Under the pieces are notes generated by a model, which had not been told where the DNA came from, ran no database searches, and was given only the letters and a program-made list of their open reading frames with translations. Below, piece by piece: positions 3,035-64,000 of a stretch of 64,000 bases of DNA. The stretch comes from Axinella damicornis (lineage: Eukaryota > Porifera > Demospongiae > Axinellida > Axinellidae). Where the stretch lies: NCBI GenBank assembly GCA_963931865.1, contig OZ007508.1:19800201-19864200 (forward strand), written 5' to 3'. The translations under genes were made by a program, and so were the position numbers. Every line of letters begins with the position of its first letter. Positions within the stretch are counted from its first letter, which is position 1.

Positions 3035-3300
3035 GGTGTTGCGCCTTTTCCAGCAGAAGACTCGCGTAACTTGGTTGCAGTCTCGAATTTGCGCTGGTAG
3101 GTATGCTCATAGATATATATATCGTCTAGGTCTGCAAAGTTGGCGCCAAAAACACGTGGTCTTCCTCGCGGCGCGGCGCGGAACACGTACACGTACGTGT
3201 CGTGCACGTGGCCGGCCTGGGCGCCGGCGCCGCCTAGTGCTCAACCAATCAGATTCTTGGTACAGTGACGTCCTATGAATAATCTAAGGTTGGAGCAAAG
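3035..3300 (-). promoter_or_regulatory. Promoter region of the oxygenase gene with E2F-like site, E-box and CCAAT box
   Basis: Upstream of the oxygenase start there is a near-palindromic TTTTGGCGCCAA (E2F consensus-like) at about 3140-3151, then an overlapping CACGTG E-box (3153-3158) and a GC-rich, CpG-rich stretch up to about 3235. A CCAAT element follows at about 3245. The elements are seen; their use as a promoter is inferred from position. Confidence 0.45.
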
Positions 3301-10315: not shown

Positions 10316-11982
10316 TCAGCTGCTGAGCAAACTAGCAGTGCATTGAGCACAGTGAACCTCAAGGTCTGTTTGGGTACGGAAGTCGGCCTTGTTACAGATG
10401 GGACAGGCCATGGAGGGTGGTTTCTCATTGACCACGTCACCAGGTGCTACCCACGGACCACCACCACCTCCTCCAAACATGCCCAGATCGTCGCGTGGGG
10501 CTGGAGCCGGCTGGAGTGGGTCCCGCCTTGGCATGGCTGGCAGTTGGATCCCTCCCATCATGCCTGGTTGTCCACGGATCCCTCCCATCACACCTGGTTG
10601 TCCTCCCATCATCCCTGGTTGTCCTCCCATCATCCCTGGTTGTCCTCCCATCATCCCTGGTTGTCCTCCCATCACACCTGGTTGTCCTCCCATCACACCT
10701 GGTTGTCCACGGATCCCTTCTGGTTGTGCTCGAAGTATTGGCAATTCGCGAGATTGCTGATTTTGAATGGGAGGTGGCCCATGCATCCCTCCCACACCAG
10801 GTTGTGCTCGAGGGATTGGTGGGTGTGGTTGAGTGTGACGTAGCTGTGAGAGGGAATGGAATTTTAGGCTCTATAAAAGAGACCGATTGTCTTCAGACAA
10901 AAGGTGCAAGCCATTGAGTGTGTGTGACCATTAACTACAACCTCACCTGGTTCAATGGCCGGTCCTGAGCCCCAAAGGTGCCTGATCCCGCAGCATTCTG
11001 CTCAGGTGCCCATGCTCTGTGGTGAAATGGTGTTCTCATCAATGCCATGCTACCAGAGGAGGCCCAACGCATTCACGTCATAGTCATTTGCGCATAACAT
11101 TCTAAAAGCAAAAAGCATGAAATATGGGCAACACAAGTGTTCCAAGGATGGGACTGCAATATGCTCAACCATGCTTGTATCTGGCTGTCAAAACTGCCAC
11201 CAGACGATCTAATAACCTTCAACAGGCAGATTTACGGTCATTGAATGCCAGTCGAGCAATGAGTGGTACTTTGACAAGCTAGATAGCTTCAACATGGTTG
11301 GAAACAACCCTGAAACCCTTGCCGTTCCATCCCTGAAGCGCTTCTGTTACCCGCATTTCCTAGTTTCTGGCTTTGGGATGCACAAATGAACAGTGACATT
11401 GTCGTGTTGTATCCAGCAGGCTGGCTACACCACCACTCAGTATGAGATTACAATAGAGTAAACATGTTGATTAAACTCTGGACTTCATTTCTAATACCTA
11501 CCTACTCAAAATACCGCTCAGAAATCTTTGTTTGACTATAATGTGCTAACCAACTAAGTTGATTGAGTACTTGCACATTGTTCGCCTATGTGAGTAATCC
11601 GGTGCCGGACAGCTCTCTGTGCAGAGCTGCTACTCCCCGATTGTGTCCACTTCAGCTGCTGCTCCCCGATTGCATTGATCCGCTTCAACTGCTGCTCCCC
11701 GTTTGTGTCCGCTTCAACTGCTGCCCCCAAATTGCGTTCGCTTTGGCTGCTACTCCCTGATTGCGTCCGCTTCAACTGCTGCGGACGGATTGCGTCAGCT
11801 TCAACTGCTGCTCCCCGATTGCGTCAGCTTCAACTGCTGCTCCCAGATTGCATGCTTGTAGCTGTCCCAGCTCATGCCCAATGTTCTCAAACATTCTTCA
11901 CGGAGTTCGAGGTTCAGTAAATTGAAGTACGAAGGTCACGCGTCACTAGTCTAGTCCCGCCCCACGACCATCCCACTTCCGT

Positions 11983-12015
<33 letters not shown>

Positions 12016-15000
12016 GGTTAAAAATGTATTGACAGTGAATGTAAATACCACGTACCTCACTGGCTGAGGTGGCGGAGGCCGGTTGAATGCATCAGGAGGC
12101 TCGTACCGTCGAGTAGGCGGGAGTCGATCATGAGGATGAGGCTGCTGATGAGGAGGCTCAAATGGTGGATCTTGCTGAGGACGAGAGCGTTGGTGGAGCT
12201 CTTGATCACCTGGAGGCAAATGACCCATCCCCATTCCTCCTCCTCCTCCTCCTCCGCCTCCTCCCAGTGGTGCTGTGAATGGAGAACTCCTCCCTCCATC
12301 TCCACCGAGCTGGGGCGGGTCATCCCACTCATCCTTGAGCTGCAGGAGAAACAAGGGGTCAAATGCTTCCAACCTTAATGGTGTCTGTGTGAGTGGAGTA
12401 ACAGAAGTCAAGTGGTTCGGTGGGTGGACTAGACTTGTACAGTGCGTGACCTTCGTACTTACCTTGAGCTTGCATTAATGTATTGATAAGATGCCACTAT
12501 GTCTGGACTTCACTACTGCACAAGGCTGTCAGAGTAATGAGCTACTCCGACACAGATAGGGAGGCGAGAGCTTGTGTGACCTCTGAAGAGAGGAACTGTT
12601 GTAATGCAAATGCCACGATGGAGGTGAAAGATCGCCAGACCTCTGCACAGAGAGCTACCCAGCATTGGATTAATGACAATAGCTGAAAGAAACAAGCGAA
12701 CCTATAACTCCTCGGCAACCTATTACATTTTGTGCGGAGAGGCTGGATCTCAAATAGCATGCTGGCCTCCTAGAACTTCACGATCAGCTTACACACACGC
12801 AACTTTGTTCCTGGCACGCCATCAGCTTTTCATTGCAGTAAAGTAAACAGGGGAAAACCCAGGCAGAGTCAAGTGAACAGGGGAAACCCCAGGCAGAGTC
12901 AAGTGAACAGGGGAAACCCCAGGCAGAGTCAAGTGAACAGGGGAAACCCCAGGCAGAGTCAAGCGAACAATAACAATAGCTTGCATGTACTGTAGCAGCC
13001 CGGGAGCTACTGGCCCAGCATCAGACTTGTAACTATAAGTTGTTCATTGAATATTGCTACGTCCACACTACGCAATGTAAAATCACACGATGAAAGGCAG
13101 TAGTAGGCTCTGTCCCCCGCACTGCATGTTGGTGGATATGAGGGTGCCCATGATGTGCACAGACAGCACACGATATCTGAAGGTACTATTAATGTACATT
13201 AGTGTTGTGAACCTGTAGCCAATAATTGGTTATTGACCAGTTATTTACACTGCCAATCAATTATTGGCTTACTGCCAGTTATTGTCTGTACTGGAACCAT
13301 GGTCTGTTTTGTACATTTTGAATCACCATTGTCATCATTACATGCATTTCTGAAGTTCTGTACTAGATAGGTGGGGTCTCTCAAGGATGTGATTGAATTA
13401 GGACACTCTCTCTATGCCAATCACCTCCTTCAGAGTCCAACCTGCAAAGGTCTGTAAGGCTGCAAGCTGTACTAACAAGTTCACTATTGATGAGTTGACT
13501 TAGAATACCACTTTGCCAATTAACCGGTCAATATCCAATATGAGGCTTCCAATAACCGGTTAGTGTAAAGAGGACAAGGTTCACAACACTAATGTACATA
13601 CCTGCTGCTTAGCATGTACGTTCAGTAGCTGCCTCAGGCTGGTAAGCTCTCTTTCTTTCTTCACGCTCTGCTCTTCAACGATGTTCTTCACCTTCACCGC
13701 CTCCTCTCTGGCAGTGCGCTCACGGTCAAAGTCTTCCGTGTACTGCTTCAGCTGATGTGGAGAATGAGAGGAAAGAGAGGAGATTAGTATCGCCACTTGG
13801 TACAGCCACCATCTTAGATCCCTTCATTTGAATGGTGGCCACTCACCTGGAAGCTCATGTGCTCGTTCCTCTCGGTCGCCTCCTTGCGCTGCTGCTCCAG
13901 CTGCTTGATCCTCTCCGCCCTCTGGGCGAGCTCCCTCAGCGCCGTCTCATACTGGTTCTTGTACTTGTCTCGCTCTGACTCAGTCTCGTGAAGTCGATCA
14001 GCCGACCCCTGGTAGTCGGTCATCAGAGCTTCACACTCGTTACGGAACTCTCGCACGGTTCCTTCCAGCTCTTTGTTCTCCGTCCGCACCTTCTGCACCT
14101 CAGCTTCCAGCCGTTGTTGAGAGTGCTGTCTCTGGCCCACACTGGCAGACAGTGATTGTATCTCCAGCTGTGAACTGTCCACCTGCTGCCGTAAGTCGTC
14201 ATTCGCCAATCGTAGGTTATCAATTTCAGACCGTAGTTGTTCAATTTCAACCAATTTCTGGTCGTAGTGGGCCTGAAGGCTTTGATGCTTCTCCTCATAC
14301 TTTTGTCTGTGAGAAAAAGAACACAATTACTACCAATTCTGGCTGTTGTCAATGAAAGTGAAAAGGAAAGAATAAACAACAAACAACACACATAGCCCGT
14401 AGTGATAACCAATGTGGCACACTAGCAAACAAAGTGTGTAGACATACTTCATTCATAGCTGTGTACAAACTTGAGTCCGAGTCCAGCAGTCATTCCCAGG
14501 CCGCTCCAGTGGCCTGGGAACGAGGCTAGTACTAATCTTGAATTCAACATAGCCTCGTTCTCAGGCCACGTGGGAGGAGAGAGAAAGTACTTTCTCTCTC
14601 CTCCCACGCGGCCTGGGAACGAGGCTAAAGTCAACGCTACTGTACCAGCTACCAGTCAAGACACACGTTCCTAGCATAGCACCTCTTGTCTGTGAGAGTC
14701 TTACAACACTCTAATCATGTGATGCAAAGATTCCACAAAAGCCTGCAGCGTGTGGCTCACATTCTAGAGTGTTTGTCCTGCAGGTCTGTGTCCAACTGTC
14801 CCTGGTACTGCTGATAGTCGGACAACTGGCGCTCTAACTCCTCCTTCTCTCCTCTCAACTCTCCCAACTGGACCTCAAAAGCTTCTCTCTGCTCCCTCAA
14901 GTCCTTCACCTGGCGCTCATAGTCACCTTTGTGAGTAAGATCCTGACGGAGTCGGTCAATCTGCGTCCGATACTGCCCTTTTTCGGCCACAGCCGTATTG

Positions 15001-18000
15001 AGTTCATCTCTCAGTGACCGGATCTCCTCTTGAAGGGCCTGGATCTTCTCTTGAAGGGCCTGACCCTCCTGTAAGGCCAAGTGTAATTCAGTGTTGGGTT
15101 AGGTTTATGCTTTAGTTTTTCAAAACTTGCACTATCATTTAGAAAAGACATAATCCAAATTTCAAAGGCACCTAAATAAGTCTAAACACTGGCCGAGCGG
15201 AGTTGTCTCGTGCGTCTAGAGTCTTGACTAGCAGCGGAGCGCTCAAACCCAGCCGGCTGGATGATGAACTGATCCAGGACCTGCTGAACCCACTATGGGC
15301 CCCAGCCCAGGCTACGAGCCTGATTCCCATGAGCAAGGATATGAAACTCACTCCCAGGCCCGAGGCTACGAACCTCAGTCCCAGGCCCGAGGGTACAAAC
15401 CTCAGTCCCCGGCCCGAGGCTACGAGCCTGATTCCCATGAGCAAGGATATGAAACTCACTCCCAGGCCCGAGGGTACGAGCCTCAGTCCCAGGCCCGAGG
15501 CTACGAACCTCAGTCCCAGGCCTGAGACTATAAAACTGCCTCTGTAGGGTCCCAAAGCGTCCCGCACGTACAACAGGGAGCCCTCATTATAACAGGAGAC
15601 ATCCGACCGAAACCAAACAGGTAAGATTGTAGGTGGTCAGTGAAGTAGCATCAGATATTTGAGTACATGAGACGAAATCTGGATCATTTGGGTACCAAAT
15701 CGGCAGTGGTATAACTCATGAGAGCACATCGTAGCTGGTCGGTAGTACTACACACTGGCCTTGTCTGCATTGAAGATCAAATGCTGCGTTTAGTTTAGCA
15801 CGTACCTAGCTAGCTGTGCACTGTACAACTGCTCATGGCTTCACGCTTGCGCACAAGGCTATGAATCCAGTAACCAACTCACACTCTTGGCTCGTTGCAG
15901 TTCCTCCTGTTCAATTCGGGCCTTCTCCTGCATATAAACATATTATGTTAGAAATTGTGCTCTAAATAATGCACATCAACAGCAGTGCAACAGCAAATCT
16001 TCATGCAATCCTACATCATACATGTACTTCATAACTGCAGTCAGATTAGTGTGCGTCTGCATGCAAAAACTACCCACTATTCCTCACGCACCTCTTTTAT
16101 CTGCTGGAAGGACTGGTAAAGCTGCGAGAGGGAAGGAAATCACTCACTCATGAAGGGACTTTTCAATGGACAACTAGCTGTCAGTTCTCTGGGTATGGAG
16201 TCTTTCTTGCATGCAAATATTACATAACGCAACGTCTTGCTTTTTCAGGTAAGATTCTGTGATGCCTTACACGTAAGATCTGTTTAAATAGTTTAGTTAA
16301 CTGGGCGGGGGCTTGTTAGTTGAAGTGATGTATTCCATTCGCATATCCCCCTATACCCAGGCTTTCTATCCCTGATTTTGTCTAATGTGATACCGTGCTA
16401 CCGTGACATCATATCTACCGGATGCAAAGGAATGACGCCACGGAATGCTGATCACAGTCAGCATGAGCTGGGGAGCCAGGAAGGTGCAAGATCGGGATGA
16501 TTCACCATCGAGGACTCACAGAACAAGCTACTAAGCTTCCAGTGAAGTCAACGGCAGCACTGTATCATGACATAACATGTGAAATTCTCCAAAGCTGTGG
16601 CATCAAATCTGAGTAGGAAACCCTGTCTAATTTGGTATCAGACATACCTGATCCGATTCTCGGCGTACATGATCGTGCTTCTGCTTCTCCTGAGATTAAA
16701 GCAAAGGAAACAGATGATCGTGTCCAACAAGAGACTCAGAGGACCGTGCAACTCACCTGCTGTAGTTCCTTCAGAATGCTGTCATTTTCATCCTTCAGCA
16801 CCTTCTTCTCCTGTCATTACACAGTTCATGAGCAAGAGTACATGTGTATTGTACGCACGGTTTTACCATTTATACACTTTATACACTGGGTACACTTTAA
16901 TATATAGCTTAATATAGCCTCGTTCCAAGGACGTGTCCCGCTCTACTTTCAGCCACATACGTGACCTTTGAACCACCTGTATGGAGCAGGAGACGGACTG
17001 GGAACGAGGCTACACTCTATACAGGGTAGGACTCCTGGCTCACTTGTGCTTGGAACATACCGTAGGAATGGTTTCGATCACGAGAATTAGTTTTTGAGTG
17101 TGCAAAAATTTGAATGCTATGCATTATGCATTACGTTATGCACGCACATGTTGCTACAAAATACACGATTTGCGTGCATTTACTAGCCAATCAAAACCAG
17201 TCCTGCGGTATTTCCTGCTGTTGTTGAGTGAGTGTTTGCGCACTGTATAAAGACAGCTGACTTACTTCTTCCAGGTTCTCGTTCCTCTGTGGAGAGAGAA
17301 AGACATGACATCATCACACAGCCGAATTGTGAATAATTAGAACACACAAACCTTCTCCAGTTCTTTCTGTAGGCCCAACGCTTCACTCAGCCGAAGAGCC
17401 AGTTTTGCCTCTGGGTTGAAACGTCCAGCAGCTGGCTTCTTGGCTTTCTCTAGCTCTTGGAATTGTGTCACCGATCCTTCCAGCTCTGCATTCTTTCTCC
17501 GAAGTGAGGACAGTTCCTCTTCCTTTTGGGTTCTCTCTCGTCGCAGCGACGACAATTCAGACTCCAACTCATTCTTTTGTGCTCTCTCTCTCCTCATTTC
17601 AAATTGTAGTTCAGCCGTTTGCGCTCTCTCGCTTCTGAGTGACTGCACTTCCACCTCCAGCTCCAACTTAATGCCCAGATCCCTCTCCAGAGCGGCAACT
17701 CTGTTCTGCAGTTCAGACTTCACCCGACCCAGGTGCTGGATAGTTGCATCTTGTTCCTGCTGCTGCCTGAGCTGGCCAGGGGAAGGAGCATCCTTCAGCT
17801 GCAACTCCAACCTCCGATTCTCCTGCTCCAACCTTCGAACCTGTTCACCTTGGCTGGAGAGCACACTGTCCCTCTCCCGTAGCCTCCGTATCTCTTCCTC
17901 CAACCTTCGGACCTGTTCACCTTGGCCAGAGAGCATGCCATCCTTCTCCTGCTCGCTTTGCTTCAGCCTGATGTTCTCCTCGATCATCTGCTGTACTCTT

Positions 18001-21000
18001 GTGGTGGAATGGCGAAGTTCTGATTCCGCTGTATCACGAAGTTTGCTCACCCGCTGCAGTTGATCGGACAATACGGACTTTTCTCTCTCTAAGTCAGACT
18101 TCTGCCTTTCGAGCTGCTCCATTTGCAAAGTGGAGACTGGCTGCAAATTAGTACGAGGTTTGGGAATGGGAGCCGTTTTAATCTTAACAGGTGTGGGCGG
18201 AGATCCAGGGGGCGTGGTTGTAGCCAACGTGACTGGGCCAGAGTGCTGGCGTAGCTTCTGGCCAAAAGTATCGTTCATTTGCTTCAGCTCGTTGACCTTC
18301 TCCAGCAGCGCCGTGTTCCTTGTCTTCACCGACTCAAGCTCCCCCTTGAGCGTGATGTTCTCAGCCTGGTTTAAGCCGAGCTCAGCAGTTAGCTGTGATA
18401 TTCTGGACTGGGAATCTTGCAAGTTTGTCCTGAGCTGGGACACTTCGGAGCTTGCCTGGTAGAACTGGACAGAAGAACACAATGTGCGAATGAAAACTAT
18501 TTTATGTTGCCTAGCAACCACAACCCTGGAATACATAACGGCCAAGAATTACAAATCTAGAAGGCAGCTGGTCCGGGGGGCAGCTGGTCCGTTGGGGCAG
18601 CTGGTCCGTTGGGGCAGCTGGTCCGTGGGGCAGCTGGTCCAATGGGACAGCTGGTCCGTGGGGCAGCTGGTCCATTGGGACAGCTGGTCCGTGGGGCAGC
18701 TGGTCCATTGGGACAGCTGGTCCGGGGGGAGCTGGTCCATTGGGACAGCTGGTCCATATTGGGACAGCTGGTCCATGGAGCAGCTGGTCTGTAACGTATA
18801 CAGTGGCAATAACAACAATTACGGTTTCATTCAATTTATGTTAGGGTGGGAGGGGAATTTCATAGGTTATTGAAACTGCACTCCTGGTAACCAGAGCAAA
18901 CTCTTATGAACTGGCACCATGGAAACCTGTTTCTGAAGACAATTGGCACCATAGGAGGCTGCTCCCTTTCAACGTAGTAGTTGACTTAAAACTATCTTCC
19001 TGGATGGTTTTTCTGTTGCAACATTCTGAGCCAGACAAAATAGCATTCACATTCGTGTACTAGACCATCTGAGTGTGTGTGAATTGTAGCCATAGATTAG
19101 CACAGCCATTTGATATCCACTCTAACGCCTGCACACACTTGCCCACCTGCTGCTGCTTGGTAGCCATCAGCTCGTTCTGAAGGCTGTCGATGTTCCTCTG
19201 CATCTCAACCTGCTGCTGCCCCAGCTGGTTCCGGAGCGCCCCGTTCTCCTGCTGGAAGGACCACACACGCTGCTGCAGCTCCGTGGCACTGGCCTTGATG
19301 CGCTGGATCTCATCCTTATCCAGATTACGCTTGTCCTGTAGGCCCGTGATGTCTTTCTGAAGCTCGTCAATCACAGCTGTCATATTGAGCTCCAGGGATC
19401 CCTTGTCTTGCTTCAGTTTGCTCAGCTGCCTACGAAGCTCCTGAGTATGGGACAAAAGGCAGGTAGTGAGTCTCAACCACATTACGATTTCTCCATGTCA
19501 GGTGTACCAGACGGCTATTGCTGCAGCAATGCGGTGAGTCTGAGTAATCAAACTACACACACAGTGAGGGCCCCACTCACACTCACCCCAACCACATGAT
19601 TCTACAAACGCTTACTTCGACAGCGTGGTCGACCTCTTTGATCCCCCCATTCTGCAACCGTCCCAGGAGATCCTGCTTCTCTATTTGCAACTGCTGGTTC
19701 TCCCTCTTCAGAGCGTCCAACTCCTGCAGGGTGGTGCCGACTGGAGCAGCTGCTCCGGCCCCGGAGGATTGCTGCATGGGACGAGGCAACTAAGCATGGA
19801 AAATAGCACCCTCCAAAACTTCTTATTCTAATGCTACCCAAGATCCAACTGAAATTGTGACACTAATCTGCACAAGCTGACCACTAATTAGCTCTTGCTG
19901 CACAAAGCCCTAACAACTCTGAAACTACTTGTGGTTCTTCCTGAGGTAGTTCCAGGAAAAGGTCTTGAAGTTTCCTCTACTAACAATTCACTGGAAACCA
20001 GCCCACCTGTCATGCAGATCACAGCTTACCACTCCACTGTTCTTCCTGGCAATCTCCGCCCTGAGGCCCTCCACCTCTCCCTGCAGCTGCATCTGCCGGC
20101 TCTTGAACCCCATCACGGCCACACGAGCTTCGAAGAACTTCTGAGTAGCTTCAGACGCATTTGTTACAACTTCTGCATGGAACCAATCCCCACATCTAAC
20201 CCAACTTCTACACAACTACTACACAGCTGTCACAGTCGAGTGGATATTCATTGGCTCATCTTTGTAATTCAATTGTACTACTCCATTAGAGTTTGAAATG
20301 GCCAGAGTAGTAAAGCATTCAGAGCTCGAACCCAAGTCCCAGGTTCACTCAACAACTATTCATAGGTGAGGTGTTGCTTGCTAAAATGTTTTCTGAGGAA
20401 CTTGACTTGGATTTACTTATACAAATATTCTAGTGCCTGGTGACAAGCCTAGTTGCACACATGATGCTTGCAACATATACAGGTCAATATAGCATCACAT
20501 TCACAGCGACGAATCAGTCCTAACATACCCAAGTAAGGCATGCAACACTGCAGCTGCACTAGACTACGTACAGTACTTTACGACTAAGATGCAAGTGCAA
20601 TTTACCCTGTCTTTCTTTCTCCTTTTCTTCCACTGTCTTCTCCATACCTTTAGAAGACAGAGACACGATGTGACACAAGAATGTCCCAGAGCTATAGCTA
20701 GTTCAGAGGTGGGCACTAATTAGAAAATTAACGTACGCACACACTTCAGCTGCAGCTACTAGGCCATGTTGAGATCTCAGTGGAAGCAAATAGGATCTGT
20801 TTGAGTCCCTGCAGCCTGAGCCAATCGCTCTCATACATGTACATGTCAAGGGGACTGTAGCTGCTTAATTAATCGTCAGAGGTATTATCCATGTGCCCAC
20901 ACAGATACATAATGACAAAACCAATAAGGTCTATAAACCCAACAACTAGAACATATATCCCATACTACAGTAACTTATCATGGGTGTTCTTAATCACAGG

Positions 21001-21685
21001 AGCAACAAGCAACTCACTCCAAGGACAAAAGTGATCAGCAACAAATGGCTGCATGCAAACTCACGCTGGTTCTCGGTCTCTTTCTGGCGAAGAAGAGATT
21101 CAATTTCTTGCAGCTTGCGGTCGAGGACCTCATTGTTATACTCCAGTCGCTCCCGCAAACGAAGGTTTTCACTGGCAGCAAAGTCCAGCTGCCTCACAAC
21201 CTCTGACACGGGGACACCTGTTTCGATTGAGTGTCCAGGATGGGTCACGCCCCCTCCCGTGTGGGCGTGGCCACCAGCACCCACTGTGACGGATGGGGGC
21301 TGGAGAGGGGGCATGGATGTACGAGGGGCAGGCCGGGGAGGTTGTGCAGGCACACTAGGGGAAGAGAGAGGGGGGTATAGCACCACACCACAGCACAGGA
21401 GCACCTCCTCCACACACACACACTCACACACCGATACTCCTGTGGGTACTCAGACTGCTTGTAGCTCGGGGGTAGCTTCACGTTTGAGGGCAGGTTCATG
21501 TAAGGATGGAACTGTTCCGTCGACTCTGGTACTGCCATGTGTCCACCATTTGAGCCATACCCCCCACCTTGATCGCGGTGGTACTGGCTCTCTGAGATGA
21601 GCTCAAAGCTACCCAGACTGGGCCGTGCACTGGACCCAGAAGATGAGTAGGGATCCAAGGTGGAGTTAGAGGGAGGTTGCGTCAT
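10316..21685 (-). CDS. Giant NEMO/optineurin-like scaffold: long coiled coil, UBAN motif, C-terminal CCHC zinc finger, 1402 aa
   Basis: Exons, 5' to 3': 21432-21685, 21065-21354, 20606-20647, 20030-20172, 19616-19771, 19147-19440, 17352-18464, 17266-17286, 16757-16810, 16648-16689, 16092-16121, 15883-15927, 14761-15068, 13847-14306, 13602-13751, 12061-12339, 10316-10843. Every phase agrees. Residues 1-130 are Ser/Pro/Gly-rich, with FELI at 27-30 (LIR-like). A first coil (ENLRLRERLEYNNEVLDRK, around residues 148-170) resembles the kinase-binding coil of NEMO and OPTN. EARVAVMGFK follows in exon 4. Long coiled coils fill residues 240-1130, with a Pro-rich break containing PIPKPR. The UBAN motif LKQYTEDFDRERTARE (exon 15, about residue 1085) matches the ubiquitin-binding core of NEMO/OPTN/TNIP. 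A Pro/Gly-rich stretch with QPG(V/M)MGG repeats leads to a finger with C1374, C1377, H1391, C1395. The start ATG is chosen because it aligns with start ATGs in the two downstream kinase paralogues. It is far longer than NEMO (about 419) or OPTN (about 577). Confidence 0.85.
10555..10735 (-). repeat. In-frame minisatellite encoding QPG(V/M)MGG repeats in the scaffold's last exon
   Basis: A 21-bp unit (sense GGTTGTCCTCCCATCATCCC in reverse complement) repeats about eight times with a few variants. It keeps the reading frame, giving heptads QPGMMGG, QPGVMGG and variants GIRGQPG. It lies between the UBAN exon and the zinc finger and probably forms a flexible linker. Confidence 0.85.
11600..11860. 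repeat. Intronic tandem repeat (scaffold intron 16)
   Basis: Units of about 27-30 bp containing CTTCAACTGCTGCTCCCCGA and TTGCGTC are repeated about eight times with variants. They lie in the intron between exons 16 and 17. Open frames across it are by-products of the periodicity. Confidence 0.8.
12838..12967. repeat. 30-bp tandem repeat, four copies (scaffold intron 15)
   Basis: The unit GTGAACAGGGGAAACCCCAG followed by GCAGAGTCAA is repeated four times almost identically. GGGGAAACCCC is itself a short palindrome. Confidence 0.85.
14491..14627. repeat. Two adjacent GCCTCGTTCCCAGGC-type fold-back repeats
   Basis: At 14491-14529 CATTCCCAGGCCGCTCCAGT faces GGCCTGGGAACGAGGCTAG. At 14550-14627 TAGCCTCGTTCTCAGGCCACG faces CGGCCTGGGAACGAGGCTA across a GAGAGAAAG/CTTTCTCTC stem. 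They are members of the dispersed palindrome family described in the findings. Confidence 0.8.
15290..15535. repeat. Degenerate tandem repeat in scaffold intron 12
   Basis: Repeats of TCCCAGGCCCGAGGCTACGA and CCTGATTCCCATGAGCAAGG alternate. They appear to derive from amplified arms of the GCCTCGTTCCCAGG element family. No coding role is supported. Confidence 0.65.
16395..16560. mobile_element. Short TIR element, family 1, copy 2
   Basis: GTGCTACCGTGACATCATAT at the left faces a right end GAAGTCAACGGCAGCAC. The interior aligns with the copy at 3751-3896. It lies in scaffold intron 10. Confidence 0.5.
18565..18790. repeat. Minisatellite CAGCTGGTCC in scaffold intron 6
   Basis: About twelve units of 15-18 bp (GGCAGCTGGTCCGTTGGG, GACAGCTGGTCCATTGG) alternate. 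No splice signals or coding similarity are found inside it. Confidence 0.85.
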
Positions 21686-22059
21686 CACACCTGACTCTGA
21701 TTGAGAACCACTACAACGAAAATTTGATTAGGAGCATCCAGAGTGGGTGTGGGCCTACATGGGAGCACGATGCTACACGTGATGCCGTACACACGGTTCA
21801 AGATGAGTTATCCAACTTACTGTATATCGGGGAATCAGGCAGCAGATCGATGTCAAGTTTAATAGTTGTAAACTGCAGAAACCTGACTCACCGTGCACAC
21901 GTCCGAACCTGAAGAAAGTTAGACTTAGGGATTCCCCCCTAGTACTATACTCGTACATAACATGACGTAAAAAGTCGCATTGCGCATGCGTACTAATCTT
22001 GCATGACTGGGCGATGGCCTGGGAACGAGGCTAGTGTTGGCCTGGGAACAAGCAAGCTG

Positions 22060-22106
22060 CAAGAGCGCATAAGTAGGTCGGGGCGCGACCTACTTATGCG
22101 CTCTTG
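22060..22106. repeat. Perfect palindrome CAAGAGCGCATAAGTAGGTC, family member 1
   Basis: CAAGAGCGCATAAGTAGGTC and its exact reverse complement are separated by a few GC-rich bases. A second copy lies at 45545-45612. The sequence would form a stable hairpin. Confidence 0.8.
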
Positions 22107-22807
22107 GAACAAGGCAAGGCTGGTAGAAAAACACTGTACTGGCTAGCCTCGTTCCCAGGAACAAGGCTGAAATACTGTGCTTCTCGGAAGATACGTATAG
22201 TGTATACATTTTAGCATTGATCGTTCCCAGCCTCTCCCACATGCAAATAATTAAACAAGTGAGTCTTTAAAAGACTTGATGTGTCTCGGCACGACTTGGT
22301 ATCAGCTAGAATCATGCAGAGGACATGGCAGCTGCTTAACCCTTTATTATGACTGCAAAACCTGTTAGCTACGAGACTTTCAGCTCAAGTGAGCGTCAAT
22401 ATCCTTGGAGGTTCTGTGTGAGCAAGGGGTGGGTCAGGAATGTTCACCCAAAGGGTGAAAGCAGTCTGGGCTTGATGTGTAGTCAACACCTTGGCCAATT
22501 CTTTCAGCACTTATCTATAGGCCTATAGCTAGCTAGCTAGAGCTGAGTGAGCTTTAGTATGCACTTGGGATGGCTGAGTGCAGCACACTGGATGGGCCAG
22601 TGAGTATTCATTGTCCTGAATTCATTGTCCTGAATTAAGTATTAGAGCTACGTAGCAGCAGTCTTGGTAAGAGGATTCATGAGCAGCCATTCAAACCCAT
22701 AATCAATTTTGAAGATCTACTTGCAGGCTATAAATACGTTTGACACCCTATTAAGGGTGTAGAGCATGCATGCAGCACTTGCGCGGGCGCATTGCGAAAA
22801 GCGACGT

Positions 22808-22858
22808 ACCACGTACGTACGTACGTACGTACGTACGCACGTACGTACGTACGTACCT
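22808..22858. repeat. (ACGT)n microsatellite
   Basis: Tandem ACGT units run for about 50 bp with one interruption (GCACGTACG). Every unit is self-complementary, so the tract can extrude as a cruciform. It lies in the scaffold-kinase intergenic region. Confidence 0.85.
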
Positions 22859-23069
22859 ACGCATCCAGCACTGTGTCTCGGCACTTCGGTGCCGAGACAA
22901 AAATTGGACTGTAAAGTAGGGCAGAGGCCTGGGAACAAGGCTACCTTCAGGATTATGTGATATGAACCTTGAACTTCACATGATTATGTGCCTAGTCCCA
23001 GTAGTCCATGTATCGGCAATGTACATGCGTACATCTACATGTACAGTCCTATAATTGTAATCATATGCA

Positions 23070-26000
23070 TCAGTGTCTCTCGAAATGTTCCAGAACCTGA
23101 CTCATACTTGGTCTCATGTGAGGGTCACACTCCAAGCAATATTGTATTAGTGTCCTCAACGGAGTTTGTTGCATCCGATGCAGGCTCACTTCTCGCTCCT
23201 CGACACCTAGTGGAATCCTTTGAGAGAACATCTCTAAGAGCAGCACCCCGTAGCTGAACACGTCCATTTTGGGGGAATGGAGCTTGGGAGCACCAGCTTC
23301 AGGGGCAGCGTAGGCCAGGTTGCCTGGACCAGCTGTTTTTGGATGCTGAAGATAGTTGACTGAACCGTAGTCCGACACTTTGGCCCTCCACCCGTTACTT
23401 GGCAGACGGTCCAGGAGAACATTGGCACTCGAGACATCACGATGGATGAGGGGGTCAGGGTGCATCAGGTGGAGGTAGTTCAGGGCTCTAGCCACATCAA
23501 TACTGATTGAAGTTATCTGTGCTGCATTAAGAGGTCCACGTTCTAGGGTGGTTCGCAAACTAGAATGCATCAATTCGGTCAGGATGATGGGCTCTTCTTC
23601 AATGGTGGCCCCTATAAACTGAACAAGGTTAGGATGTCGTATACTGGAGGCAATGTTCATCTCCCTAACAAAGAGATGTCGATTGTACTGTGAGAGATGG
23701 AGGCACTTGGCCGCCACGGGGAGACCCCGAAACTTTGCAACCTGGACCACGCCCCATCCTCCTCTGCCAACCTCTTGAGACATTAGGTGGATCTCATCCC
23801 TCCTCACCACCCACAGGTGCTGCTGTTCATTTCGTGTGGAGGGAGGCTGGAGGGAACAAGGCAGTGGTCATACTGAAGGTCACATGACAAAACATGAAGG
23901 TGGTTCAACAGCAATATTACTGGATGGAGATGGACTAGGAAGAAGACCTCAGGTCATGTGATTTTAAAGCATAGTCACATGACCTCAATCAAAGAACCAT
24001 TTCCAGTTGTGAGGAAGTTTAAATTTCACTCACAATGATTATGGTTCACAAAAGAATTTTGGGATTACGAATCAATGTCGCAAAACTAACACCTCTTCGA
24101 CCTGTTGGTGTTGCTGCCGGCTCTTCAGTGCTGCATTCTCCTGCTGTAACTCCCTCACAGCCTCCTGCATACTCTGGATGTCCGTCTGAAGTGTGTCAAT
24201 CACAACTTGCAGACTTTTCTGCTCGTTATCTTGAGCAATCCTTTCTGCTTTCATCTTTTCCTGAAGTTCCGGCATCAAGAAATACGTACGTATCAGCAAA
24301 AAAGCAGATATGTGACTCTAACCACAACCCCCAATTAAGTTGCAATCAAGTCTCCCAGGAAATGCCAACCTGCCATAGCTAAAAAACGGGCCATGGAGGC
24401 ATGGACACTGGAAATGGAGGCCCTACAAGGCAAGACAACTTGTTTCTGAGTCCATTTTATCCTTGAACCCAGGCTACAGCTAGACCCAGACATGGCCACT
24501 GTTCGCACCCTTTGGGTGCACCCACCCACCTCCCCCTGCCCCGCTCTTTCGGCTCACGCAGAACCTAAGTCCCAAGAACATTGCCAGATGTGACATAATG
24601 AAGCTGAAAGTCTCACGGCAGATATATCCACTTTTAGACCAAAGAGGTTTAACTTAAATTAAGGGTTTCTCGATCATTTCTTCCCATGTTCTATGTATAT
24701 AGTAACCAGTATTCATATTCGTATCCATGGAGACAGCTGCAACTACTTACAGTCTCACTGGGTTTATCGACCATCCCTCGGAGGTGTTCCACCTCTCCCT
24801 GCAGCTGCATTTGACGGCATTTGAACCCCATCACTGCCACACGAGCCTCAAAGTACTTCCGCACAAACTCCTCCTGCATAGCTAGTTCAGTTAGGGGGTG
24901 AAGGATTCAACAGCTTTACTATGGCTGCTGTGACTTCCCCTGAAATAAGTGTAGCAACCCAAGTATGAAATTCTGAGAAACGACCCTGGTCGTATTCCTA
25001 AGTAAAACTTGAACGACATTCACAAGGTCTGTGGCTCTAGTGGGAACAGTGGAACATGTCTATAGCGGTCACCTGGGACCATGCAGTATTTTTGCCCACC
25101 ATAGACAGGTGGCTGCTTTAAGTAAGAATTTGTAGCAAATGGGACCAGCTGTATGACCTTAATAGAGAGATGGCTGCCTTGAACAGAGACCACTATGGAC
25201 AGGTTCCACTGTAATTTCACAAACTACAATGTTAAACAATTCACTCCAGAAGAAATATCTGATGCCAGCTGCTGTGTCATAAAGGGTGCTCTTTCCTACC
25301 TACCTTCTGTATCCTTCTCTTGTGCTTTTGTTTCTTTGTCACGCAGTTCTTGCTCCAGTTGTGCGATCTTCTCCTGAAGGCGTACGTTTTCTGACACCAA
25401 GTTCGGCTGAATGAGGTGTCCAGGTGGCTGTTGCATCCCACCACCACGTGGCACACGTGCACGTGGCACCGGCTGGGGAGGAAGCCTGTGTGTGTGTGTG
25501 TGTGATCACGAATGCTTGTGAAGGTGCTTTAACCTCTAATGGAGGGCATGCAAATATGTCACTTTTCGGTATAGACCCAATGTATAGCGTCATTTTTCAC
25601 GACATTTCCATACACTAAAAGCTTGTGCCGGCCGCCATCTTGGTGCGCCATAATACATCGACAGCATATGCAGTATTGATTGAAACGAGCCCTCCATCAC
25701 TGGAAAGTGTTTGCATACCTTATTTAGCCTACAGAGCAATGGCATTTCGTTCAGTTCAACTCAGAGTTCCTGCTCATCATCGAGAGGGCCTCGATACAGG
25801 TCTCGCGGATGTGAGTTGGCTCCCCCCCCAAGTTCCACACCTACACACACACACACACTCATACAGAAGCAATTTTTGGGATCGCCTACATGCAAGCTTC
25901 TATCTCGAGGTGCACCAACATGGCGGCTGTTTTCGTTTTTTGTTTGTGCTTTTCTCAAAGTGATGATGTCACCTGCAGTGGGTCTATTTGCTGCTGCCAA

Positions 26001-26378
26001 CTTGGAAAGTAGAGCCAAAACCCTCACAGACTAGCTGCCAACGAGAAAGCAATGGAGGGGTGTGTCAATTACGCAGGGACGTGACAAGATTAAGAGTGCA
26101 TCAGTAGACCACACCCCCCAACAGGGAGTTTGTGTCCCCCCGGGCCCCATACTAGGTTATATCATATGATTAGCTATGAATCAGAACAGTACAGTCATAT
26201 CGTACCGATACTGATCGTGTGCTACCGGTATAGGTACCGGTATGTCTTCGGGATTGTATATGGGCGCGGGTAGACCAGAGGGGGAGAAGGATGGTGAACG
26301 CCTAAGGTCACCGGCACCGCCCACACCAGCGGGGGAGCTGGGCGTCTGTGGATACCCGCGCGGACGAGGAGCTGCCAT
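23070..26378 (-). CDS. Scaffold-kinase fusion protein 1: NEMO-like-paralogue N-terminus plus TKL-like kinase, 473 aa
   Basis: Exons: 26206-26378, 25304-25485, 24751-24881, 24102-24260, 23070-23846; phases agree. Residues 1-58 are Pro-rich (MAAPRPRG start). Exon 2 ends in a coil (SENVRLQEKIAQLEQEL) and exon 3 carries EARVAVMGFKCRQMQLQGEV. These match exons 1, 2 and 4 of the scaffold gene in sequence and splice phase. Exon 4 is a short coil. The last exon is a complete kinase domain: glycine loop G242-R-G-G-W-G247, Lys262, Glu277, catalytic H350-R-D352 with N357, then D374-Y-G376 in place of DFG, and APE-like YAAPEA. Catalytic residues are intact, so activity is likely; substrate unknown. The style (HRDVSSANVLL) is that of TKL-like kinases. 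There is no UBAN motif or zinc finger. Exon 4 appears to use a shifted acceptor (see findings). The exon 1 start is inferred from alignment with its paralogues. Confidence 0.85.
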
Positions 26379-26707
26379 CAAGCCCAGACTGGCGAGAGAA
26401 CATACACGGTCGGGGTACGGTCCAGACTCACAGCTAAGCTAAGCACGCCAATTTACTTAGGGGAACTCCCACATGGCCGATCTCGCGCACGTGCGCGCCG
26501 ATATGAATTCAATTATGTACAAATGACCAATCACATTTAGGTGGCGCAATACCAATGAGATGACTATTCTTGGGTGCACACTAGTCTCATTCCCAGACCC
26601 TGAACGCACACCTGAGCTGCGAAAAAGGATGCACGTTCGGGGTCTGGGAACGAGACTAGTGTGCACACACATTAAAGGTTTAATTACAGCAGAAACAGAT
26701 GTCTACG
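26379..26707. promoter_or_regulatory. Short intergenic region between the two kinase genes
   Basis: The 329 bp between the end of kinase gene 2 and the start of kinase gene 1 must hold the terminator of one and the promoter of the other. Seen here are a palindromic GCGCACGTGCGC at about 26483-26500 and a fold-back repeat at 26579-26661 (ACTAGTCTCATTCCCAGACC facing GGTCTGGGAACGAGACTAGT). Confidence 0.45.
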
Positions 26708-29700
26708 CTAGTACAGTAGTTTATTCAAATGTTCCAGAATCTTATTCATCGTTGGTCTCCTTTGAGGTTCGTGCTCCAAGCACTGTTGTATAAGGGCTAG
26801 CATGGCTGGTTCCTGGACACGCTGCAGGAATTCTTCTCGTTCTTCAGCACTCGGAAACTTACGGGAGCACATCTCTAAGAGCAGCACTCCGTAGCTGAAC
26901 ACATCCATTTTGGGGGACTGGAGCTTGGGAGCATCAGCTTCAGGGGCAGCGTAGGTTGGGTTGCCTGGACCAACTGTTTTCAGGTGCTGAAGATAGTTAA
27001 CTGAACCGTAGTCCGCCACTTTGGCCCTCCACCCCTTATTCTGAAGACGGTCCAGGAGAACATTGGCACTCGAGACGTCACGATGGATTAGGGGGTCAGG
27101 GTGCATGAGGTGGAGGTAGTTCAGAGCTCTAGCCACATCAATACTGATTGAAGTTATCTGTGCTGGATTCAGGGGTCTGCTTTCCAGGATGGTTCGCAAG
27201 CAAGACTCCATCAATTCAGTCAGGATGATGGGTTGTCCTTCAATGGTGGCCCCTATAAACTGAACAAGGTTAGGATGTCGTAAACTGGAGGCAATGTTCA
27301 TCTCCCTAACAAAGAGATGTCGATTGTACGATGAGATAATGGCGTGATGGAGGCACTTGGCCGCCACCTGGAGGCCTCGAAATTCTGCAACCTGGACAAC
27401 AGCCCATCCTCCTCTACCCAGCTCACGTGGCGTGAGGTGGATCTCCTCCCTCCTCACCACCCACAGGTGCCGCTGCTCATCTCGAGTGGAGGGAGGCTGG
27501 AGGGAACAAGGCAGTGGTCATAGCTACTCTGGCTGCATACTATGTCCTTCAACTATTGCCTGTTCACATCTACACGTAGCTTTAATTCTATTGAAGTGAA
27601 TGGAGAGGGTCTGGGAGTGAGACCAGTTGAATAGCTACAATATGTTGCAGGGCATTCTGACAACAGAGTAATATACTACTACACAAAAAATCAAATCTTG
27701 TATCTCAGCTCTAGTCCTCAACCTGTTGCCGTCGACTCTTCAGTGCTGCGTTCTCCTGCTGTAGCTCCCTCACAACCTGCTGCAGTCGCTGCATTTCACT
27801 GCGATCCTGGCCATGCATCCCCTCCAGACTCTGGATGTCCGTCTGAAGTGTGCCAATCACAGTGAGCAGATTTCTTTGCTCTCTGTCTTGAGCAATCTTT
27901 TCAGTTGCCATTTTCTCCGACTGTGCCTGAAGTTCCTGCATCCAGAAACAGAATATGCTCTCTGAAGCCTGTGGCAGAGTAGAGGCTAAATACTGCATGT
28001 AAAGTCGAGAGCTGCAACAATATTGTGTTTTGCTGTTACGATATGTATGTATTGATACATTGACAACATGTATAGCAGGCTTAATGTTAATACTTCACTG
28101 AGAAAAATATAAGGTCAGAGCTTCCTTGGTAGTAGTGTTCATTACGTAATATGAACACTACTACCAACTCTACCTGCTGTTGGTGTTCCTGCCGGCTCTT
28201 CAGTGCTGCGTTCTCCTGCTGTAGCTCCCACACAACCTGCTGCAGTCGCTGCATTTCACTGCGATCCTGGCCACGCATCCCCTCCATGTCCTCCTTAAGC
28301 TTATCGATCACACTGAGCAGATTTTCCCGGTCATGGTCGTGAGTGATTTTCTCAATTTTCATTTTCTCCAACTGTATCTGAAGCTCCTGCATCCACAAAA
28401 CATCAGTGGGAGAACAATCTGAGGCCCATGACAGATCAGCATATACTACTTACAGTCTCACTGGGTTTATTGACCATCCCCCGGAGATGTTCCACCTCTC
28501 CCTGCAGCTGCATTTGACGGCATTTGAACCCCATCACTGCCACACGAGCCTCATAAGACTTCTGCACATCTGGTCCAGATGAAGGAACAGTATTGTACGG
28601 CTGATGCGACATTCCATGATAATATGACCAAGCCAGACCCAGCATGGATAGTTACAGGTGCAATTGCAAGACTACGGTGAAGGCTGCCATTGGCCCCTTT
28701 ACGGAGGACATTTAGACATATCACAAGAGGTTGTGATTCTACCAGGAACCAGGTACATGCAGAGTCAATATCCTCCTGATGTCAGCTACGTATTGTATGT
28801 AGTCAAATAGCAAATATGTGCGTCAGTTAACAAGGAGTTTCTACCTACATTTCTCCTGCTTCACTTGTGCTTTCTCAAGCTGTTGCTGCAGCTGTGAGAT
28901 CTGCTCCCGAAGGCGTGCGTTCTCTGATGTCGTTTCCTGCTGAATGGGGTGTCCAGATGGCGGTGGCATCACACGTGAACGTGGCACTGGTTTCGGAGGA
29001 CGCCTGTGTGTATGTGCACGTTGTGTATGCATGTTGAGGGATGAGCTACACTTCCTAATACAGTAGAGAAGATGTACAAAACTAATCCTGTCACTCCCTT
29101 CATGTTGCTGCTTAGCCTCGTTCCCAGGCTCCTCCCTAGTACAGTATGCAACAAAAAGCTGGGGAGGAGCCTGGGAACGAGGCTAGTTGCTGCTGGCAAC
29201 TGAGGGGTGTGTCGTTGCCCTTTAGCAATATCACAATGTACACGTGAGCTATGTTGTAACCGCCAAATGAACCAGCCTCTTTCCTTTGCCTGAGGCTATG
29301 AACATATTGAAACTGTCTCTCCACTGCACCTCCAATGGATTCCAGGACGGGGAACCCTTGACAACGAGGCATCATCTTCATTGAAACCATGTGAGGCTGT
29401 GGAATCACTGGAATCTTGTGTGTGATGCAAGAACGATTTGGTTGGTTGCTAACATGAGAATGACGCTTCAATCATGTGGATGCCTAAAGCAAGAACACTT
29501 GGCGTAACCACTTAGCAGGGAGAATTAGAGGGTGACCAATGCCATGGTAATTAGGTCATTACATTTTACTTAGGGTGGTGTCAGGGTCGAAAACAAAAGT
29601 GTTATACGTATGAGCATCTAGAATCAGTAGCAAGGATGAGACTGTGGGTCTAGCTCTGGCCCAACTGCGGATTATTTCATTGTGCACTCCGTCCTACCCC

Positions 29701-30094
29701 AAAAATAAAGAAGACCAGGCTGCTGTGTGCCCTTCGGAGGGGGCATTAAGCTGTCAGTAATACTCAGTATACATGACGGGACCTGGGCTCTGCCTTCTCC
29801 AGGTCCTTGTTGGCCACCATCGCTCAAAATCAGAACAAGCATTTCATACCAATGCTGGTCATCCGGTGGTGGTGCGACATCAGCATCGGGATGGTAGATT
29901 GGAAGGGGCAGATCAGACAAGGAGAAGGAAAGTGATGTCGGGTCTGAGGACTCAGGGTCTGGGGATGTAGATCTAGACGACTTCCTGCGTCTGACCAAAC
30001 CAGGTGGGGGAGAGAGAGAGCGAGGTGGGGGAGAGAGAGAGCGAGGTGGGGGAGACCAACGTATCTCGGCCCCACGCTGAGGAGGACGTGACAT
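26708..30094 (-). CDS. Scaffold-kinase fusion protein 2: NEMO-like-paralogue N-terminus, duplicated coil exon, TKL-like kinase, 576 aa
   Basis: Exons: 29850-30094, 28849-29003, 28454-28569, 28174-28386, 27723-27935, 26708-27496; phases agree. Exon 1 encodes MSRPPQRG and a Ser/Pro-rich region with SPPPRSL repeats. Exon 2 encodes RPPKPVPRSRVM and a coil (SENARLREQISQLQQQL). Exon 3 encodes EARVAVMGFKCRQMQLQGEV. Exons 4 and 5 are both 213 bp and encode similar 71-residue coils ending ELQQENAALKSR, an internal exon duplication. The kinase exon has the loop G341-R-G-G-W-A346 (third Gly replaced by Ala), Lys361, Glu379, HRD 452-454 and DYG 476-478. It is about 80 percent alike to the neighbouring kinase by eye. 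It lies 329 bp upstream of its tandem paralogue and is head to head with ACSL. It is likely an active kinase; a role with the scaffold gene is inferred from shared modules only. Confidence 0.85.
29113..29186. repeat. GCCTCGTTCCCAGGC-type fold-back repeat (kinase gene 2 intron 1)
   Basis: TAGCCTCGTTCCCAGGCTCC faces GGAGCCTGGGAACGAGGCTA around a loop containing AACAAAAAGCTGGGG. This is one of the cleanest full-length copies of the family. Confidence 0.85.
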
Positions 30095-45425: not shown

Positions 45426-48400
45426 GGGGGGGTGGGGGGGTGACCACCTGGGGGGGTTTGTGGGTTCGTCTCAGCACTCCTTCACCTGCCTGCAGCAGCC
45501 TGGGAGACACTCAAAGTTCATAATAATTCTGTTCATGCCTAAAAGCAAGAGCGCATAATTAGGTCGTGCGGAGTACTCCGGGGGGGGGCGCGACCTACTT
45601 ATGCACTCTTGCTAAAAGTTGTACAGGTGCTTACAACTGCAAAATTGTGCGCTACATAGCAAGCATTTACATATGGGGGCATTATGGGCCAACCCTTCTG
45701 AACAGCGTGGGACTTACTCCGATACAATGGCTGCTGTGGCTTAGTTAGGACTATACACCAGTTCTCATCTCCCTACCTGGGAGTACACGAGGACGAAGGA
45801 GAGAAACAGAGTCAGCATATGAGTGATATTCTCTCTGTCTATCTCAGAACATCCACAAGGAGCTAGAGGAGAAGATAGCCAGGTTCCATAACCGTGAAGA
45901 CGCCATCCTCTACGCCAGTTGCTTTGATGCCAATGCAGGGCTGTTTGAAGCCATGCTAGCTCCTGAGGATGCCCTCATCAGTGACCAGCTCAACCACGCC
46001 AGTATCATCGACGGAATACGATTGTGCAAGGCTCAGAAGTACAGGTACAAGAACACTGGTGAGTCTGTTCACTACAGTACACCTATATGTCCTCTCTGCT
46101 CCCTTCCTCCTCCCTTCCTTCCCCTTCCTCTCATTTCACACTTCTTCCTCCCTTCTTGCCCCCTTCTCTCTTTCCTTGCTTCCTTCCCCTCTTCCTCCCT
46201 ACCTGGCCTCTCTCTCCCTCCCTCCCTCCCTCCCTCCCTCCCTCCCTCCCTCCCTCCCTCCCTCCTTGCACCTCCTCCCTCCCTCCCTCCCTCCCTCCCT
46301 CCTTGCACCTCCTCCCTCCCTCCCTCCACCTCCTCCCCCCCTCTCTCTCTCTCTCTCTCCCTCCCTCCCTCCCTCCTTCCACCTCCTCCCTCCCCCACCT
46401 TTCCTCATCCTCCTCGTCTTCCCCTCCAGACATGGAAGATCTAGAGACTCAGCTGCAGCAAGCCAAGAATGCCCGCATCAAGCTCATTGTCTCGGATGGT
46501 GCCTTCAGCATGGACGGCAAGATCACTCCACTCAAGTGAGCAATCAGACTCCAGCGACAATTTTTTTGTTGAGAGCGTTGATACAAGCCAAAAGCCTATA
46601 TATATATATGACTAGAAACAAAAAATTTTCTTACAAAAATTACAAACGATTTAGTGATGGCCACGCCGATCGACTCCCGAAAAAGCAGACAAACAAGGAA
46701 TGCCATTAACCAGCCTCAGTCCCATCCCATTTAAAAATGTAGGATTTAGGGATGGGATGGGACTGAGGCTGGTTAATGGCACTCCTTGTTTGTCTGCTTT
46801 TTCGGGAGTCGATTGGGGTGGCCATCACTAAATCGTTTGTAATTTTGTAAGAAAATTTTTTGTTTCTAGTTTGGGAGGTTTTTTGAGCGCATGGAATGCG
46901 TAAGTTTCTAACGATAGGGGTAATGTATCAGAGATGGATGTATAACCAAAATGTTTGATTGAACAATCTCTAGCTATGTCATCACCGTGCAAAGGAGAGC
47001 TGCCTTGATGCGTTCTATGATACAGGGTTAGGTTGCTATGAAAGCTGCTTCCACATGAATAGCCCAGTTTGTGGACACTATAGGCCATACTCTAGTTAAT
47101 GAAGCTGCACTCTAATGCTGTGGCCCCTTCTCAATGTAATATCCTTGGATACTAAGTTTTGGGAGGAACTATGGGTGAATTGGCTGCATATAAACATGGT
47201 ATTCACTAGTTCATTTCCATGCACTGTTATTCCACAGGCCAATGTGTGAGTTGGCGGAGAAATACAATGCTCTAGTGTTCCTGGACGACTGCCATGCTAC
47301 TGGTTTCCTGGGCAAAACAGGAAGGTATGATATCCACATCTTAGTGATGTCATCACAAATGCAGCAGGCATGCTGCACATGTTAATTACATGGATATGAC
47401 ATCATTGATTTTCATTGCCATCATTGTCAGTGACATCATTGACAACGACATCATTGACAGTGACATCTTGTAGCAGTGATGTCATCCGATGGGATGGCAT
47501 TGTGAGAATGCAAATGGTTAAGTTGTTATGTAAGTGGTGGTGATATAGGGCATGCTGTGACGTCATCGGAAAGTGTGTGTCCATGTCTAATTGTTCAAAT
47601 GAACGATGAATGAGGCTTCCTTATTTTATGACTGTGTAAGGATGATATATGTATGTAAGATATGCTGAGACACCTTCTGAACGTGTGTCCATGTAATTGT
47701 CCAAATGAATTATGCTTATTTTGTGACTGTGTAAGGAAGGTGTTGCGGTAGCCGGGATCCTTGCGCTTGTGTAGCCCAATGAAGCCTCCTTATTTTATGG
47801 CTATGTGAGGTATGTACGTCTGTATGTAAAATATTCTGAGACACGATCAGAACGTGTGCCTATTAATTGTCCAACTGAGTGAGGCTTCCTATAAACCATT
47901 CTTTTATGACCATATATGGTGTCGCATAGCTGAGAGTGCCACAAACAATCTAGACTGAGTTCCGCACAGTGTGGGCAGTGTGATGCGCATTGCACGCATA
48001 GTGGACCTCTAGAGGTTAAATTTTGTTTTGTGTTAAGAACTGCACTCAAAACTCTCTGGGCCTCCTCTGGAGCCATTGAGGCTCAGATACGTTTGCCTAG
48101 AACATTTAGTGATTGTGCTATTAATGTTAATTGGATAAATATACTAGCGCTATAATCTGATTGGATAATAAGCAGACAGTGTGCCAGTCTAGTGGACTCT
48201 CCTTTTTATGTACATAACTACATCTCCCACCATACCCACTCCCTCTCTCTCTTCCCATCACACCCCTCCCCTCTCCAACCTCTCCCTCTCCCTCTCCCTC
48301 CTCCCACCACACCCACTCCCCTCTCCAACCTCTCCCACTCCCTCCTCCCACCACACCCACTCCCCTCTCCCTCCCTTCACCACCCACAGAGGCACAGAGG

Positions 48401-50222: not shown

Positions 50223-50426
50223 ATGAGTTATCATGACAGCTACCTACCCAGCTTTTCACTGTAGGTGTCTGCCATTCATTCACTAATACGCCTACAGGAA
50301 TTTCATTGTACACGTATGTGTTTCTGTGTGGCAAATCAGTATGAACTGCTATGCCGATGCTAGTCAGTCCTTCACTAGCTGCACTCCTGGGGCACCACTC
50401 ACTCTCTTCTGCTGAGACACCACGCA

Positions 50427-56390: not shown

Positions 56391-64000
<7,610 letters not shown>

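Follow-up and report, generated by a model that had tools for sequence, protein, structure and literature searches.

A predicted UBAN scaffold gene and two neighbouring kinase genes that appear to be built on its front-half exons in the sponge Axinella damicornis

In vertebrates, the reader of ubiquitin and the kinase are separate proteins. A fusion of scaffold and kinase would wire ubiquitin sensing to kinase signalling, and natural fusions of this type would point to partners that act together. Does a sponge genome hold such fusions? The question is raised by a locus of Axinella damicornis in which three consecutive minus-strand genes, here called A, B and C, lie within a stretch of 64,000 nucleotides (C4:19800201-19864200, hereafter the window, in whose positions features are given) of a genome whose 120 contigs total 226,483,885 bases. 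A first-pass annotation had described them as a NEMO/optineurin-like scaffold and two genes in which a scaffold N-terminus is fused to a kinase. As judged from sequence, the locus is a UBAN scaffold beside two kinases built on its front-half exons, an arrangement that goes beyond a coincidence of coils. From the earlier description, the side-by-side position, the common descent of exons 2 to 4 of B and C with A, the UBAN of A and the complete kinase motifs stand, and the NEMO-family label of the shared N-terminus does not find support, so that the interpretation is partly supported; because exon 1 of A gave a null result and the single-sequence results for the UBAN were weak, the observation is taken as partly confirmed and confidence in the module proposed below is slightly reduced.

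Gene models and common descent of their exons

Splicing in silico gave gene A (10316..21685), gene B (23070..26378) and gene C (26708..30094), with 18, 5 and 6 coding exons and products of 1427, 473 and 576 amino acids, respectively. The introns are GT-AG, the frames are closed and internal stops are absent, which agrees with the three spliced genes that had been proposed. The model of A comprises a Pro-rich N-terminus, the shared coil exons, long coils, a UBAN, a Pro/Gly-rich tail and a CCHC finger; B joins A-type N-terminal exons to a kinase, and C does the same with a doubled coil exon. The exon ends that close the three modules are in phases 2, 1 and 0 in A, B and C alike, as had been noted.

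Homology was tested exon by exon, by comparing the score of each peptide alignment with those of 500 shuffles. Exon 2 of A (21065..21354, ending in phase 1), which has the Pro-rich lead and the SEN.RL coil of the earlier description, matches exon 2 of B (25304..25485) and of C (28849..29003), and no shuffle scored as high in either pair. The same result (0/500 in both pairs) was obtained for the exon that carries EARVAVMGFK, namely exon 4 of A (20030..20172, ending in phase 0) and exon 3 of B (24751..24881) and of C (28454..28569). The best local DNA alignments of this exon hold 64 identical bases of 72 between A and B, 66 of 73 plus two gaps between A and C, and 110 of 114 plus two gaps between B and C. 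With the B exon as query, the whole genome gives three matches at E ≤0.01, which are B itself (1.7e-22), C (1.2e-16) and A (1e-9), and its claimed presence in all three genes is thus borne out. The coil exon 6 of A (19147..19440) was tested against exons 4 (28174..28386) and 5 (27723..27935) of C, where no shuffle scored as high, and against exon 4 of B (24102..24260), where 4 of 500 did. Genome-wide, the top non-self match of this exon is C exon 4 (E 4.4e-4); C exon 5 is third (E 0.049), after a C9 match (E 0.031), and B exon 4 is absent at E ≤1. The single coil exon of B has a different acceptor position, and C has two such exons, the second (exon 5) being a tandem copy of exon 4 with identity at 168 of the 203 bases aligned, plus nine gaps.

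The likeness does not extend to exon 1 of A (21432..21685, ending in phase 2). As many as 455 of the 500 shuffles scored as high against exon 1 of B (26206..26378), and 317 against exon 1 of C (29850..30094); place, end phase and Pro/Ser-rich composition are the sole common features, and homology of the aligned start noted earlier is not confirmed. Exon 1 of B and that of C resemble each other (7/500). Exon 3 (20606..20647, 42 nucleotides) and the coil exon 5 (19616..19771) occur only in A, the latter being unlike B exon 4 (187/500) and C exon 4 (247/500). Exons 2, 3 and 4 of B and C therefore share descent with exons 2, 4 and 6 of A, and the shuffle test limits to these exons the modular 5' half that had been claimed for all three genes. 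Duplication of genomic DNA is favoured over a retrocopy, since the intron phases are common to A, B and C.

The ratio of nonsynonymous to synonymous substitution rates (dN/dS) in the EARVAVMGFK exon is 0.26 between A and B (43 codons) and 0.18 between A and C (38 codons), with dS near saturation (1.4 and 1.7), and of the 21 columns that run from E78 to E98, 20 do not vary across the three genes. Between B and C, dN/dS is 0.47 in exons 1-4 and 0.40 in the kinase exon, where the best local DNA alignment holds 654 identical bases of 759 plus 16 gaps, and where a dS of 0.32 suggests a fairly recent split.

The kinase exons (B exon 5, 23070..23846; C exon 6, 26708..27496; stop included in both) have a common phase-0 acceptor. 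As had been claimed, both encode a TKL-type kinase, a label that comes from best matches and not from a kinome tree: the full Pkinase domain of Pfam is matched at E 3.5e-35 (B) and 4.3e-35 (C), GxGxxG, VAAK, HRD, DYG and APE motifs can be read in both, and the best PDB match of B is TAK1 (E 9.1e-27), not IKK or TBK1. A quick tree with 30 kinases places B and C as sisters, with a support of 99 in the Shimodaira-Hasegawa-like approximate likelihood ratio test (SH-aLRT). By path, four database proteins lie closer to the pair than any other sampled kinase from the genome does. The tree took in 23 of the 30 loci L004-L033 (L022 and L032 were left out for stops, L028 and L031 as partial, and L019, L024 and L026 for brevity), two UBAN kinases as outgroup and five of 12 chosen database proteins, the other seven having no anchor for cutting. 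Several of its deep forks are weak, and it fits a kinase lineage that would have taken on A-type exons here.

Repeats are also present at the locus. A short tandem GACCAGCTG-type array lies in an intron of gene A (18540-18820), and AGCCTCGTTCCCAGGC-type interspersed repeats, many as inverted pairs, occur in introns and intergenic DNA (e.g. 14520-14630, 16930-17010, 22020-22180 and 29120-29180).

The UBAN of gene A, its termini and UBAN-kinase joins elsewhere

Exon 15 of A (13602..13751; YTEDFDRERTARE) had been read as a UBAN. It matches CC2-LZ of Pfam at E 1.8e-4 with 22.3 bits, under the curated cut-off of 35.3. The CC2-LZ profile gives 21 matches in the genome at E ≤10, none above the cut-off and 14 in C8:11.40-11.94 Mb; on 14 control genomes, it gave sub-cut-off matches in two. 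When ten UBAN loci were translated, nine had an open DF..ER..R core and one (L039) had none, and D, F, E, R and R are invariant in all ten rows formed by these nine loci and A; we take these residues to match the ubiquitin-contacting residues of NEMO. When a ten-row profile from this genome, A included, is searched against the PDB, the top 20 chains are all from TNIP2, NEMO, OPTN or TNIP1 (E 4e-7 to 4.4e-4), and the match that follows is at 0.17. With an eight-row profile, from which A and a close paralogue on C8 were omitted, A's exon comes first among the frames of the window (E 0.0022; next 1.2). That search lists the single exon frame of A and does not list full-length A, B or C at E ≤50, for which our guess is a correction for coil bias. 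A C8 paralogue aligns over the exon 14-15 junction of A (60% over 209 columns, gapped), and three places on C8 hold relatives of A's coil-UBAN region.

Other results speak against the UBAN. A longer segment of A matches CC2-LZ at E 6.3e-4, as the seventh of 17 Pfam families; when A's sequence alone is searched against the PDB, NEMO (E 0.053) comes after keratins (0.011) and DNA polymerase beta (0.031); A's exon is 13th among the 21 CC2-LZ matches of the genome (E 0.098); and nine of the ten alignment rows were picked by the Pfam profile, a choice that in part predetermines the invariant core. Profile and single-sequence evidence together nevertheless argue for a real UBAN in A, and the earlier assignment is retained; A is probably a ubiquitin-binding scaffold, with binding predicted.

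The C-terminus of A is encoded by exon 18 (10316..10843), which combines QPGMMGG repeats with a CCHC finger that may be UBZ-like. The finger reads C-x2-C-x13-H-x3-C and matches in the PDB the zinc fingers of HKR3 (E 0.0042, where no single stretch is significant) and the UBZ of FAAP20 (E 0.021), with no NEMO or OPTN finger among its 15 matches; the match to UBZ_FAAP20 of Pfam is weak (E 0.23), and genome-wide no other match lies under E 0.69. The QPGMMGG units form coding short tandem repeats at 10580-10720.

The N-terminus that is common to the three genes had been placed in the NEMO/OPTN/TNIP family, a placement that is not upheld. PF11577, the kinase-binding N-terminal coil, is not among the Pfam matches in A, and its best match genome-wide (E 0.74) lies outside this locus. 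The optineurin N-terminus is the top PDB match at E 0.24, and a reversed-sequence control reaches 0.31, which rules it out as proof of NEMO-like identity. In a protein collection, residues 60-250 of C drew 750 candidates with none at E ≤0.01, and residues 120-400 of A had none at E ≤0.001 among 7999 scored; both nulls are weak evidence against the module proposed below, since that collection probably lacks most exon-split genes. The shared N-terminus may represent a coil for kinase binding or self-binding that has diverged.

In-frame joins of a UBAN exon to a kinase exon were found on C8 and C9. On C8 (11681355..11678211), UBAN, coil and kinase exons follow in succession within 3.2 kb, in phase 0 and with GT-AG introns; on C9 (about 3438834..3437051), the UBAN exon is followed directly by the kinase exon (phase 0-0, GT-AG). 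Each joined protein matches a kinase and CC2-LZ in Pfam, the latter under the cut-off (E 1.9e-4 for C8 and 0.0087 for C9). A UBAN-kinase fusion is thus supported, on sequence, at two of the five loci examined, and the same count rules out that a UBAN and a nearby kinase on C8 always form one gene. L047 is a broken copy, the kinase gene at C8:11662 apparently has a separate first coding exon and its UBAN-like exon is degenerate, and no in-frame join was established at C8:11752. These genes outside the window, with UBAN and kinase in one polypeptide, appear to be the stronger form of the fusion idea.

Two further observations concern these regions. The C8 interval with the 14 sub-threshold UBAN matches (L034-L045, L047-L049) also holds nine near-full-length TKL-type kinase exons, two of them with a stop, and contains broken copies besides the in-frame gene modelled there. 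The second in-frame UBAN-kinase gene, L046 (C9:3436951-3442950), has an upstream open reading frame that presumably resembles a neuralized-type (NHR) domain.

A ubiquitin-driven kinase module and its alternatives

The best reading of the locus is that exon shuffling tethers kinases to a ubiquitin-reading coil. Part of the 5' half of A, at least exons 2, 4 and 6, would have been copied and fused to a kinase exon, in phase 0, from a large coil-kinase family, and the fusion gene would then have been duplicated to give B and C. The A-type N-terminus would be an assembly module: B and C would co-assemble with A and with each other via the SEN.RL, EARVAVMGFK and coil segment, A would take the assembly to ubiquitin chains via its UBAN, perhaps with help from the finger, and the kinases, once clustered, would be activated by trans-phosphorylation, with whatever NF-kB output might follow. 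We infer that A, B and C form such a ubiquitin-driven kinase module, and give this an even chance of being right. If it is, an early-branching animal would be building this pathway through exon shuffling, and the fusions would serve as a simple test system of whether ubiquitin clustering alone can switch on a kinase.

Several findings weigh against the module. The exon-2 coil is shorter in B and C than in A, and the UBAN of A lies in the half that B and C do not carry. No CC2-LZ was found in B at E ≤0.1 (the whole-protein scan covered B alone), and the window frames of B and C score no better than E 1.5 with the eight-row UBAN profile; because no UBAN was detected in them, B and C would not read ubiquitin alone. 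The N-terminal coils of the ten database coil-kinases that were read are unlike the A type, and the A-type coil may be one more dimeriser.

Such a variety of coils would also be expected if the shuffling were neutral, with a fast-turnover coil-kinase family taking up nearby phase-0 coil exons and B and C having no functional tie to A or to ubiquitin. We regard this as the most serious rival, less probable than the module. The kinase has many relatives, with 146 scored matches in the genome at E ≤1e-20 (34 with at least 50% identity, self included) and, in the protein collection, 3174 of 8000 scored at E ≤1e-5, a number that will take in kinases of other families. All modelled kinase joins (B, C, C8 and C9) are in phase 0, and exon 1 of A is not common to B and C, both of which a neutral course would allow. 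The near-invariance of E78 to E98 and the low dN/dS of A with B and with C are, however, beyond what a generic coil would need, and UBAN-kinase joins are found on C8 as well as on C9.

The gene models might also be wrong, in that the kinase exons are separate genes and the upstream exons truncated scaffold transcripts, which we consider improbable. The models were built from genomic DNA, a point that bears on the module as well; B has an in-frame ATG directly before the glycine loop (HLMSQEVGRGG), and C8:11662, with the seemingly own first exon of its kinase, illustrates that adjacent exons need not form a single gene. Against this, the acceptor common to B and C gives the same join in two genes, C has no ATG ahead of the glycine loop in its open frame, and both halves have a dN/dS of less than 1. 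Least probable of all would be B and C as decoys or negative regulators that compete for the N-terminal partners of A and damp ubiquitin signalling, which their A-type exons and missing UBAN would suit, since the intact kinase motifs and the dN/dS of 0.40 in the kinase exon are more than a decoy needs.

A broader extension of the module is tentative and, in our judgement, rather unlikely: in this lineage, TKL-type kinases would have been linked to ubiquitin-reading scaffolds on repeated occasions, and the resulting ubiquitin-chain-activated kinases would let one or two proteins stand in for NEMO plus IKK or RIP kinases; the kinase-docking domain PF11577 was not detected in the genome. It would take two forms, one of A-type exons plus kinase with A as partner, and one of UBAN plus kinase in one polypeptide, as on C8 and C9.

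Surroundings of the locus and comparison with known systems

Elsewhere in the window, a 796-amino-acid open frame at 719-3106 (minus strand) has a weak match to 2OG-Fe(II) oxygenases, just under the cut-off (E 4.2e-5), and 45827-46444 (plus strand) matches aminotransferase class I/II (E 7e-13), perhaps, we assume, a glycine C-acetyltransferase. A minisatellite at 50364-50964 leaves several frames open (HHTTWMVSPG and PPYHLDGVS repeats), and a long pyrimidine-rich tract occupies 58810-60000, with a GC skew of -0.56 over 58001-60000.

As for the pathway setting, Rel homology exons lie at C4:7.96 Mb of the genome and a HOIP-type RBR domain at C11:1.88 Mb, and both count in favour of the module. 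A review from 2026 on early-animal NF-kB mentions IKK, and the word NEMO does not appear in its main text (PMC13042239); NEMO and optineurin are the subject of another publication (PMC10694592). No UBAN-kinase or scaffold-kinase fusion appears in the titles or abstract beginnings among the literature matches listed.

Gene A resembles NEMO, optineurin and TNIP (ABIN) in its long coils, in a UBAN with the D-F-x-x-E-R-x-x-R core and in its C-terminal CCHC finger, and differs from them in its length of 1427 amino acids and in that PF11577 was not detected; the x13 spacing of its finger contrasts with what we take to be x12 in NEMO. The kinase exon of B is akin to TKL kinases (TAK1/MLK and others), as its best PDB match indicates, from which it departs by an HRDVSSAN catalytic loop and by DYG in place of DFG. 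The database coil-kinases (P0001-P0120, one of them from Porites lobata) have kinases of up to 73% identity and, in the ten that were read, a coil N-terminal to the kinase; unlike the A/B/C locus, the best 120 of the 3174 database relatives contain no EARV-like and no UBAN pattern. The UBAN-kinase genes of C8 and C9 have a kinase of the same superfamily as B and C, joined in frame to a UBAN exon; they differ from B and C in carrying the UBAN itself, and the C8 kinase is 44% identical to those of B and C.

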